Made by a program: the position numbers and the translations under genes. Positions 22,208-58,856 of a stretch of 64,000 bases of DNA are shown piece after piece; within the stretch, counting starts at the first letter, position 1, and each line of letters begins with the position of its first letter. Source of the DNA: Dongia rigui (GTDB taxonomy: Bacteria > Pseudomonadota > Alphaproteobacteria > Dongiales > Dongiaceae); NCBI RefSeq assembly GCF_034044635.1, contig NZ_JAXCLX010000001.1, positions 2,356,001 to 2,420,000 of the forward strand, read 5' to 3'. The notes below the pieces were generated by a model. It was not told the origin of the DNA. It made no database searches and saw only the letters and a program-made list of their open reading frames with translations.

Positions 22208-22316
22208 TCCCCTCACCCCAACCCCTCTCCCCGCAAGCGGGGCGAGGGGCTTGAGGCTGGGGCTCGCAGGAAACTCCCTCTCCCCACGAAGTGGGGAGAG
22301 GGTCGGGGTGAGGGGC
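22208..22316. repeat. dispersed inverted repeat, family A
   Basis: CCCCTCACCCCAACCCC... pairs with ...GGGTCGGGGTGAGGGG; inner hairpins are CCCCGCAAGCGGGG and CTCCCCACGAAGTGGGGAG. It lies directly after ndk. Confidence 0.8.
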
Positions 22317-47580: not shown

Positions 47581-47599
47581 CGCGAGAGTCGTTCCTTCG

Positions 47600-47675
47600 T
47601 CATCCCCGGACTTGATCCGGGCATCCACTCTATCAGCTGCTGCAGTGGATCCCCGGGTCAAGCCCGGGGATGACG
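47600..47675. repeat. dispersed inverted repeat, family C
   Basis: CGTCATCCCCGGACTTGATC pairs with GGTCAAGCCCGGGGATGACG around a spacer with ATCCACT and AGTGGAT. Very close to the copy at 31848-31923, and likewise just upstream of a coding start. Confidence 0.8.
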
Positions 47676-47703
47676 TGATGAGAGAGCAAAGGGGAGTTCT
47701 TAA

Positions 47704-56580: not shown

Positions 56581-56612
56581 AACCCCGCTCCGGCGGGGTT
56601 TTCTTTTTCTAC
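56581..56612 (+). terminator. rho-independent terminator after the lipoprotein gene
   Basis: AACCCCGC (56581-56588) and GCGGGGTT (56593-56600) form a perfect 8-bp stem with loop TCCG, then TTTCTTTTTCT. Confidence 0.92.
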
Positions 56613-56721
56613 GATTTTTGAAAGCCCGGAGAACCGTCTCCTCGTTGGCGACGGCCCGGCTGACGGCTCGGAAAGACGGCCGCTGACGGCGCGCGCTTGC
56701 GCCGAGAGGTCTTGTTTGAAG

Positions 56722-56767
56722 GCGCCGCAGGCGCCAGCCGCCACGCCAACCCTGCCGCCTGCGGCGC
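56722..56767 (+). other. hairpin 1 of three with a shared loop motif, before the capsid gene
   Basis: GCGCCGCAGGC (56722-56732) pairs perfectly with GCCTGCGGCGC (56757-56767). The 24-base loop contains CCGCCACGCCAAC. The 289-base gap 56557-56845 has no gene; it holds the lipoprotein terminator and this hairpin. Confidence 0.7.
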
Positions 56768-56845
56768 GTTGGTGCCAGCCGACGAGGCAACCTCGCCGAT
56801 CAAAGCAGTCACTTCCGACAACAGACGAAAAGGAGTCGTGGACCC

Positions 56846-57706
56846 ATGTCCTCGCAGATCCAGGTTGCTTTCAACAACCTTTACAGTGCGAACATCATGC
56901 TGCTGGTGCAGCAGAAGGGCAGCCGCCTCAAAGACGCGGTGCGCCAGGAAGTGGTCGAGGGCGAAATCGCCTATTTCGACCAGATCGGTGCGGGCAGCGC
57001 CATCAAGCGCCAGTCGCGCCATGCCGACACCCCGCTTACTGAAACGCCGCATGCCCGGCGCCAGGTGATGCTGGAAGATTACGAGTATTCCGACCTCATC
57101 GACCGCCTCGACCAGGTGAAGACGCTGACCGACCCGACCAGCGCCTACAGCCAAGCCGCAGCCCACGCCCTGGGTCGCGCCATGGATGATGTCATCATCG
57201 CCAACGCCAATGGCACCGCCCGCACCGGCAAGACCGGCCAGACCAGCGTTGCCTTGCCGGCGGGCCAGAAGATCGCCGTCGGTGGTACGGGCCTCACCTT
57301 GGCCAAGCTGCTCGCCGCCAAGGAAGTGCTGGACGCGGCGGAGAATGACCCGGACGAGCCGCGCTTCATCGCTTGTCCTGCCAAGGACATTACCGTGCTG
57401 CTCTCCAACACGCAGGTGACGTCGAGCGACTATAACACGGTGAAGGCTTTGGCCGCCGGCCAGATCGACACCTTCCTCGGCTTCAAGTTCATCCGCACGC
57501 AGCGCCTGGGCACCACCAGCGGCGGCGACCGGGCGTGTCTTGCCTGGCGCCAGTCTGCCCTGCTGCTGGCCATCGCGCAGACGCCGAAGGTCAAAGTGAC
57601 CGAGCGCCCGGACAAGTCCTATGCGACGCAGGTCTATTGCGCGATGTCGGTCGGTGCCACGCGCATGGAAGAAGAAGGCGTCGTCGAGATCGCGACTGTC
57701 GCTTAA
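56846..57706 (+). CDS. phage major capsid protein
   Basis: 286 aa, preceded by AAGGAG. It begins SSQIQVAFNNLYSANIMLLV; RRQVMLEDYEYSDLIDRLDQ, AAAHALGRAMDDVIIANANG and GFKFIRTQRL...ACLAWRQSALLLAI match the podovirus capsid family that includes BPP-1-type coats. It forms the icosahedral shell. The decoration protein gene follows 83 bases later, a gap with a long perfect hairpin. Confidence 0.88.
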   Translation: MSSQIQVAFNNLYSANIMLLVQQKGSRLKDAVRQEVVEGEIAYFDQIGAGSAIKRQSRHADTPLTETPHARRQVMLEDYEYSDLIDRLDQVKTLTDPTSAYSQAAAHALGRAMDDVIIANANGTARTGKTGQTSVALPAGQKIAVGGTGLTLAKLLAAKEVLDAAENDPDEPRFIACPAKDITVLLSNTQVTSSDYNTVKALAAGQIDTFLGFKFIRTQRLGTTSGGDRACLAWRQSALLLAIAQTPKVKVTERPDKSYATQVYCAMSVGATRMEEEGVVEIATVA

Positions 57707-57709
57707 AGG

Positions 57710-57754
57710 GTCGTGGGCATCGCGGCCGCCCGCCAACCTCGCGATGCCCACGAC
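57710..57754 (+). other. hairpin 2 of three with a shared loop motif, between capsid and decoration genes
   Basis: GTCGTGGGCATCGCG (57710-57724) pairs perfectly over 15 bases with CGCGATGCCCACGAC (57740-57754). The 15-base loop contains CCGCCCGCCAAC. No T-run follows, so it is not a standard terminator. Confidence 0.85.
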
Positions 57755-57789
57755 TGGTTTGCAGACTGAAACTCACCAGGAGAAAACAT

Positions 57790-58215
57790 ATGGCTACTCA
57801 ATACGGCACCCAGATGGGGCGCCTGCGCAACACATTGCCGGTGGACCTGCCGATGGCAGGCGATATCCATGGCCGCGTGCGCGTGTTCAACGAAAAGGTC
57901 GTGCTGGCCGCCCAGCCGACCAGCGACATTGTCGAAGTGGCGCGCCTGCCCAAGGGTGCGCGCGTGCTCTATGGCATCGTCAACAGCACGGTGTCGCTGG
58001 GCTCGTCGACGCTGGCGATCGGCATTGCCGGCAATACCGGCAAGTATCGCGCCGGCGCCGTCTTCACCGCGGTCGACACGCCGACCCTGTTCGCACCCGC
58101 AGCCGTTGCCGGCGAGGCGCTGACGGCCGAGGAAATCGTCATCCTCACCATCGGTGCCGCGGCACTGCCGGCCACCGGCACGCTGCGCGTGATGCTGTTC
58201 TACACGCTCGACTGA
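57790..58215 (+). CDS. putative head decoration (cement) protein
   Basis: 141 aa, AGGAG upstream. Glycine/alanine-rich beta protein, for example DIVEVARLPKGARVLYGIVN, SSTLAIGIAGNTGKYRAG and GTLRVMLFYTLD, placed directly after the capsid gene, where BPP-1 has its cement protein. Members of this type bind the outside of the shell. Assigned by position and composition. Confidence 0.7.
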   Translation: MATQYGTQMGRLRNTLPVDLPMAGDIHGRVRVFNEKVVLAAQPTSDIVEVARLPKGARVLYGIVNSTVSLGSSTLAIGIAGNTGKYRAGAVFTAVDTPTLFAPAAVAGEALTAEEIVILTIGAAALPATGTLRVMLFYTLD

Positions 58216-58221
58216 TCTGGA

Positions 58222-58262
58222 CGCGCGGGCAACAGCCGCCCGCCAACGCTGTTGCCCGCGCG
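58222..58262 (+). other. hairpin 3 of three with a shared loop motif, after the decoration gene
   Basis: CGCGCGGGCAACAG (58222-58235) pairs perfectly over 14 bases with CTGTTGCCCGCGCG (58249-58262). The loop CCGCCCGCCAACG repeats the loop sequence of hairpin 2 while the stems are unrelated. No T-run follows. Confidence 0.85.
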
Positions 58263-58280: not shown

Positions 58281-58856
58281 ATGACCGTCTCGACCGTATC
58301 GATCTGCAACCGCGCGCTTGATCTCCTCGGCGCCGATCCCATCACCTCACTGGAAGACGGGTCGAAGGCAGCCAATCTGTGCCAGCGCAATTTCGAACCC
58401 TCGGCAGATTCGGTCCTTCGGCTCTATCCCTGGAACGCGGCACTGCGACGCGCACGCCTGCCGGCCCTCGCCGAGGCGCCGGCCTGGGGCTATCGCTATC
58501 AATACCAGTTGCCGCAAGGGCCGGAGCCGGCCTTGTGCCTGCGCCTGCTCGAGGTGGACAACGGCACCGATTACCGCGTCGAAGGCCGCCGGATCCTGGC
58601 CGATTACGGCGCGCCGCTCGACATTCTCTATATCGGGCGCATCATCGACAGCGCCAGTTACGATCCGCTGCTGGCCGAAGCGATCGCCGCAAAGCTTGCC
58701 GTGCATCTTGCCGGCAATCTGACTGAAAGCGCGTCGCGCATTGAAGTGGCGCGCGACTATCTGCGCAGCATCATCGCCGAAGCCAAGGCCACCGACGCCC
58801 AGGAGGGTGGCGCCAGCGATCTGGTGGTCGATGCCTGGCTGGCGGCACGGAGCTAA
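58281..58856 (+). CDS. tail tubular protein A-like (T7 gp11-type gatekeeper)
   Basis: 191 aa. It begins TVSICNRALDLLGADPITSL and continues CQRNFEPSADSVLRLYPWNAALRRA, the standard opening of this adaptor family; LAEAIAAKLAVHLAGNLTES lies near the end. It forms the ring between portal and nozzle. Next gene four bases later. Confidence 0.85.
   Translation: MTVSTVSICNRALDLLGADPITSLEDGSKAANLCQRNFEPSADSVLRLYPWNAALRRARLPALAEAPAWGYRYQYQLPQGPEPALCLRLLEVDNGTDYRVEGRRILADYGAPLDILYIGRIIDSASYDPLLAEAIAAKLAVHLAGNLTESASRIEVARDYLRSIIAEAKATDAQEGGASDLVVDAWLAARS

Follow-up and report, generated by a model that had tools for sequence, protein, structure and literature searches.

Three hairpins at the capsid genes

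The window, by which we mean the whole 64-kb stretch of DNA analysed, contains a run of phage structural genes on the forward strand, with three long hairpins (hp1, hp2 and hp3) in and between them. The features of this region are as follows:

56624..56800, + strand: conserved, probably structured leader of the major capsid protein (MCP) gene, from a by-eye comparison of 15 loci
56722..56767, + strand: hp1, in the MCP 5' leader; stem GCGCCGCAGGCG, a mismatch, then CAG/CTG; A-type loop CCGCCACGCCAACC
56846..57706, + strand: MCP gene (phrog_3437, E=5e-83; at most 56% identity to Pelagibacter phage MCPs)
57710..57754, + strand: hp2, starting 4 nt past the MCP stop codon; 15-bp perfect stem
57790..58215, + strand: virion structural gene at the decoration position (phrog_486, E=1e-7)
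58222..58262, + strand: hp3, starting 7 nt past the stop of the decoration-position gene; stem CGCGCGGGCAACAG, loop CCGCCCGCCAACG
58281..58856, + strand: gp11-like tail protein gene, downstream of hp3 (phrog_394, E=1e-43)

A sequence-only reading of this DNA had described three perfect hairpins of 11, 15 and 14 bp, preceding the capsid, decoration and gp11-like genes. All three are present, but the stem of hp1 consists of 12 perfect bp, one mismatch and the 3 bp of CAG/CTG, and hp3 can be paired either as 15 bp around an 11-nt loop or as 14 bp around the 13-nt loop CCGCCCGCCAACG. The loop of hp2, CCGCCCGCCAACC, has 13 nt and lies inside 15 unpaired nt, and the loop common to the three hairpins is CCGCC[A]CGCCAACC. 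As to position, hp1 does lie ahead of the capsid gene, in its leader, but hp2 and hp3 are better said to follow genes, because they start so close behind stop codons.

Stems of 12 bp or more occur in the window only at hp1, hp2 and hp3 and, as one 12-bp stem, at 22276, and none of 14 bp or more arose in 20 first-order-Markov resampled 64-kb sequences. RNA folding z-scores were -2.0, -4.4 and -5.9 for hp1, hp2 and hp3, respectively. None of the three is followed by the U-tract of an intrinsic terminator, which agrees with the earlier statement that they are not ordinary terminators; the only nearby terminator-like site on the same strand is an ordinary terminator at 56581-56600. An Rfam search at permissive E-values returned nothing credible for the hairpins, and BLAST of one element against phages and plasmids gave no matches above chance level. 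Elsewhere in the window, positions 47595-47678 matched several unrelated microRNA families of Rfam weakly, and are probably just a long inverted repeat.

The hairpin hp1 sits in the variable apical part of the MCP leader, between GAGGTC and GGCAACCTC. The leader region (56624-56845) follows the pattern CCCGGA.AACCG..GGCCCGGCTGACGGCYCGGAAAGACGGGCCGC..GAGGTC-variable-GGCAACCTCGCC, which can still be made out in relatives with MCP identities as low as 59% (L097 and L098) and probably forms a structured RNA. No Rfam family matched this leader, which could itself act as a riboregulator of the capsid gene.

A fixed loop on freely changing stems

The MCP loci closest to that of the window come from Dongia. 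In phages and prophages whose capsid proteins are 88-99% identical (L013-L018 and L093-L095), hairpins with the same loop and different stems lie at the same places, and not every relative has a hairpin at every place. Up to 12 of the 16 pairs of the hp2 stem are changed between relatives, 10 of these being fully compensated, at a fourfold-site divergence of 0.13; the capsid genes of the phages compared for hp2 stems differ at 13-32% of fourfold sites. It had been proposed that loss of the loop motif or pairing in related phages would speak against a functional element: the motif is retained in close relatives and has been gained by unrelated phages, but is missing from distant relatives. Most of the wider relatives with the same capsid family have no hairpin after the MCP gene and carry the next ribosome site right after its stop codon, which led us to reject the idea that this capsid family generally has a conserved 3' hairpin. 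Several relatives carry other hairpins at the position of hp3, or a loop that has been invaded by another short palindrome. This second short palindrome, approximately GTCGGCGNATGCCGACATTCGTCGG, is nested in the hp2 loop of L094 and at the hp3 sites of L015 and L014; a REP-like repeat, GTCATGGTCCGC-GAAG-GCGGACCATGACGA, is also found near capsid genes, upstream of MCP in L016 and L093 and at the hp3 site of L016.

The part of the element that is kept is an 18-nt core, made of the 14-nt loop CCGCC(A/C)C(G/A)CCAACC and two closing pairs that depend on a loop base. Across 84 fourteen-nt loops, positions 1, 5 and 9-13 are invariant and positions 2-4, 7 and 14 almost so, while position 6 is mainly A or C and position 8 mainly G or A. 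Among 45 elements found without using the positions concerned, the GG/CC form of the second closing pair (GG|CC) went with C at position 6 in 24 and AG|CT went with A in 15, the crossed combinations never occurred and six elements had others. This coupling may reflect a folded loop that contacts the stem, or the existence of two subfamilies. On the 5' side of the stem, the adjoining 12 nt are rich in T, at 39-42% compared with about 17%.

The stems of unrelated sites are near random in sequence, with a slight excess of similar pairs only. Double changes were seen in 13 of 14 pairs, every variable stem pair covaries, and the covariation score was 0.88, against 0.22 in shuffles, so that the suggested covariance-model check came out positive and the description of one loop on stems conserved only in pairing was borne out. 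RNA stems tolerate G-U better than A-C. Over 12 pairs in each of 94 elements, however, we counted 1046 Watson-Crick pairs, 51 transversion mismatches, 16 A-C and 15 G-T, and in the subset located after virion genes 3 A-C and 2 G-T. Because G-T is not commoner than A-C, these counts, which are small, give no sign of an RNA constraint on the stem that is specific to one strand.

A dispersed family in bacteria and phages

A search for the loop pattern in 17 genomes of the bacterial family returned matches of which about half were long hairpins with unrelated stems, many of them far from the prophage of the window. The covariance model R1, built from 24 elements, found matches in 11 of these 17 genomes and in 13 of 385 Alphaproteobacteria; within the window it scored hp1, itself one of the 24, at E=5e-9, and both hp2 and hp3 at E=1e-5. 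The 18-nt core RGCCGCCMCRCCAACCCY had 30 matches in 14 of the 385 alphaproteobacterial genomes, against 4 for a reversed control, and its few matches in an evenly drawn phylum sample were mostly alphaproteobacterial. In viral contigs, four exact core sequences occurred at about 60 places, most in long hairpins, and several contigs held two to four core copies. Specificity comes with the 18-nt core including its closing pairs, unlike the 14-nt loop alone: most exact 14-nt matches in viral contigs have no stem, and the loop was rejected as a sequence-only motif. None of the loop sequences was found in print in the main texts of the open-access literature.

Genomes carry about one to nine copies, which are lower bounds because not all candidates are scored in the genome searches. 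Such numbers are unusually low for an active repeat and count against a mobile-repeat reading. A tandem array was seen, and about ten elements are compound, of the form arm-loop-arm'-loop'-arm. One contig, L528, contains this compound twice (167-242 and 1748-1819), with overlapping hairpins on both strands and complementary loops. A pseudoknot between the loop and the 3' flank (CCAACC with the GGTTGG beside hp1) was considered and rejected, since only 12 of 95 elements have a GGTTGG-like sequence on their 3' side; such flanks are better explained as remnants of the inverted second loop of compound forms.

Several copies lie inside protein genes. The pheS gene of four genomes of the bacterial family holds the element in-frame (TIGR00468 for the two checked), the sense copies encoding the peptide GRPANP or GRPTNP, whereas compact, empty-type versions in other genomes have a short linker at this spot; in two genomes of one genus, the loop in pheS has opposite orientations. 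The gene for an error-prone DNA polymerase holds an in-frame copy in two genomes and is empty in relatives, and a phage NlpC/P60 gene has an in-frame copy at its start, at the N-terminus. In genome G001 (L460), the error-prone polymerase gene has a different palindromic in-frame insert (..SSSSPPACGGRGQGEGG..) at the spot that holds the conserved-loop element in other genomes. Further copies lie directly 3' of tRNA-Thr, tRNA-Leu and tRNA-Ser genes, and between convergent genes. No target-site duplication is visible at the filled and empty sites compared, which are too diverged for exact insertion ends to be set, because no sister pair is close enough.

Capsid genes are a recurrent neighbour. 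For 15 elements of the viral scan, an upstream gene on the same strand was tested, and eight of these elements directly follow an MCP gene (phrog_3437, phrog_10 and phrog_334); two prophages of G008 add MCP-associated copies (phrog_4523/133); viral-scan finds and G008 prophages together, these copies span four unrelated capsid families. With a null of 2% chance per phage gene, which is our own assumption, and with crude gene calls in the contigs, the association has p ~1e-10 for 8 of 15 and p ~3e-6 for 8 out of an assumed total of 45. The other virion genes that precede the element are those for tail sheath, decoration-position, tail and baseplate proteins, and in the distant phage L541 it follows both the capsid gene and the next gene, with the same 14-bp stem each time. 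Elements also favour the transcribed strand (21:7, p=0.013), and selection for an RNA function could account for this bias and for the clustering at capsid genes. The sequence-only reading had proposed a functional RNA element of phages; the placement at capsid genes does recur in unrelated phages, but the stem shows no RNA-strand preference, and the element is not phage-specific, because some copies are in-frame insertions in the pheS and error-prone polymerase genes and others follow tRNA genes. Nor is the binding site for a phage protein, also proposed there, needed to account for its distribution.

Origin and role of the element

We favour, with a probability of roughly 0.6, the reading that hp1, hp2 and hp3 all represent a single palindromic DNA element that is dispersed among Alphaproteobacteria and their phages; in this reading its loop is recognised, template switching keeps its arms matching and, at capsid sites, it probably also acts as an mRNA 3' barrier. 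The observations behind it are the wide dispersal, the presence and absence at orthologous sites, the in-frame insertions, the multiple and tandem copies, the two orientations at one site, the arms that match while the stem is free in sequence, and the clustering after capsid genes. The element would spread as DNA, its loop being the part recognised when the DNA forms a cruciform or a single-strand hairpin, and the complementarity of its arms would be upheld by template switching between inverted-repeat arms during replication; if arms are kept complementary in this way, the stem drifts or is replaced while pairing stays. Copies would survive best beside strongly expressed genes, where a transcribed hairpin just past a stop codon may block 3'-to-5' decay and so help to make capsid and decoration protein in excess of the products of downstream genes.

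Template switching between inverted-repeat arms is known to homogenise the arms and to invert spacers (PMC8604942), and in yeast such events have been seen only under high transcription (PMC3820800). The tracts left in quasipalindromes resemble our element in their homogenised arms and inverted spacers (PMC8604942, PMC3820800), but they are the product of a mutational process, whereas the element is a repeat family with a fixed loop. Template switching accounts for arms that are perfect yet free in sequence, for the inversion of the loop in pheS and for the compound elements. It leaves the conservation of the loop unexplained, for which loop recognition or recent spread is needed. In a stronger version, which we consider rather doubtful, the structured 14-nt loop would be the whole mobile element: a loop-recognising enzyme would move or re-create it, the stem would be made or rewritten from local DNA without any heritable stem sequence, and phages would repeatedly have put it to use at the 3' ends of unrelated capsid genes.

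An alternative possibility is a true cis-acting RNA, in which a host or phage RNA-binding protein reads the loop on any stem, as lambda N does on boxB, and sets late-gene mRNA stability or antitermination. In lambda boxB/nut hairpins, the loop is kept and the stem serves mainly as scaffold. The nearly invariant loop core and its coupling to the closing pair, the strong covariation, the placement after capsid, tail-sheath and decoration genes and the transcribed-strand bias are all as such an RNA would have them. However, the boxB loop has 5 nt, compared with the 14 nt found here, copies occur within host coding genes (pheS and the error-prone polymerase, one of them antisense), and G-T shows no excess over A-C even in the capsid-gene subset (2 versus 3). 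The match to a curated covariance model and the tolerance of G-U over A-C that characterise cis-regulatory RNAs of the Rfam type were likewise not seen (no family matched; 15 versus 16, small numbers). We consider this reading unlikely.

We think it less likely still that the hairpins belong to a conventional REP/RAYT or MITE family, moved by a hairpin-recognising transposase. Size, dispersal, 3' UTR placement, the T-rich 5' flank and the compound inverted forms are suggestive of one, and like REPs these are short, transcribed palindromes, often 3' of genes and between co-transcribed genes. But REP families share a stem sequence and a 4-nt tag and have mostly short loops, whereas in this element it is the 14-nt loop that is fixed, on stems of free sequence; by inspection, no GTAG or CGTC tag is apparent in the flanks; and REPs are extragenic, while this element has in-frame copies in pheS and the error-prone polymerase gene and near the NlpC/P60 start. 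The Y1 transposase (PF01797) is absent from 17 of the 21 genomes checked, G000, G008, G014, G020 and G134 among them, including most carriers. RAYT mobilisation was therefore rejected, and membership of the REPs fails because there is no common stem, copies are inserted in coding sequence and most carriers have no Y1 transposase; the lack of a visible target-site duplication also counts against a transposase-moved family. The palindromic elements of Rickettsia and Wolbachia (RPE) lie in-frame in alphaproteobacterial protein genes (PMC2229807, PMC3733652), and in this the element resembles them, judging from pheS and the error-prone polymerase gene with their shorter empty-type versions in relatives. 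RPEs, however, measure about 100-200 bp and have conserved terminal inverted repeats, compared with about 40-50 bp and arms unrelated between sites. The element behaves like REPs and Rickettsia palindromic elements and fits neither definition.

Very unlikely, in our view, is that these are plain, immobile mRNA 3' stabiliser or attenuator hairpins whose loop is inherited or convergent. An exonuclease barrier has no need of a shared 14-nt loop. Copies in coding genes and in unrelated phages, and the lack of a hairpin there in most relatives with the same MCP, also argue against it, although the hairpins are very stable and lie 4-7 nt past stop codons, and several relatives have other hairpins at the hp3 site. 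There is a precedent in the Rhodobacter puf operon, where, according to a reference given in PMC6238624 (Klug 1987), an intercistronic hairpin after a highly expressed gene of an alphaproteobacterial operon sets segmental mRNA stability. REP hairpins have similarly been reported as barriers to mRNA decay, with 3' copies stabilising mRNA (PMC12306157, PMC3733652). By this analogy, it is plausible that the dispersed element we favour serves as an mRNA 3' barrier or RNase-resistant end where it lies at capsid genes. Unlike this element, the puf hairpin is not known to belong to a dispersed family in which the loop is conserved. Finally, chance palindromes can be dismissed: short stems are common in GC-rich spacers, but the resampled windows and the genome counts of the core (30 versus 4 for the reversed control) refute this reading, and orthologues retain pairing with different sequence.

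Known bacterial palindromic repeats retain their stem sequence, whereas this element retains nothing but its loop and one contact between loop and stem. Such conservation points to a folded single strand that is recognised by some factor, and to DNA template switching as a process by which palindromes stay perfect. A caution follows as well: perfect compensatory change, usually taken to prove that an RNA is functional, can originate in the DNA itself, for which the count of G-T against A-C mismatches provides a simple control. The recurrence of the element after capsid genes of unrelated phages makes it possible to test directly whether repeats of this kind set the levels of capsid mRNA.
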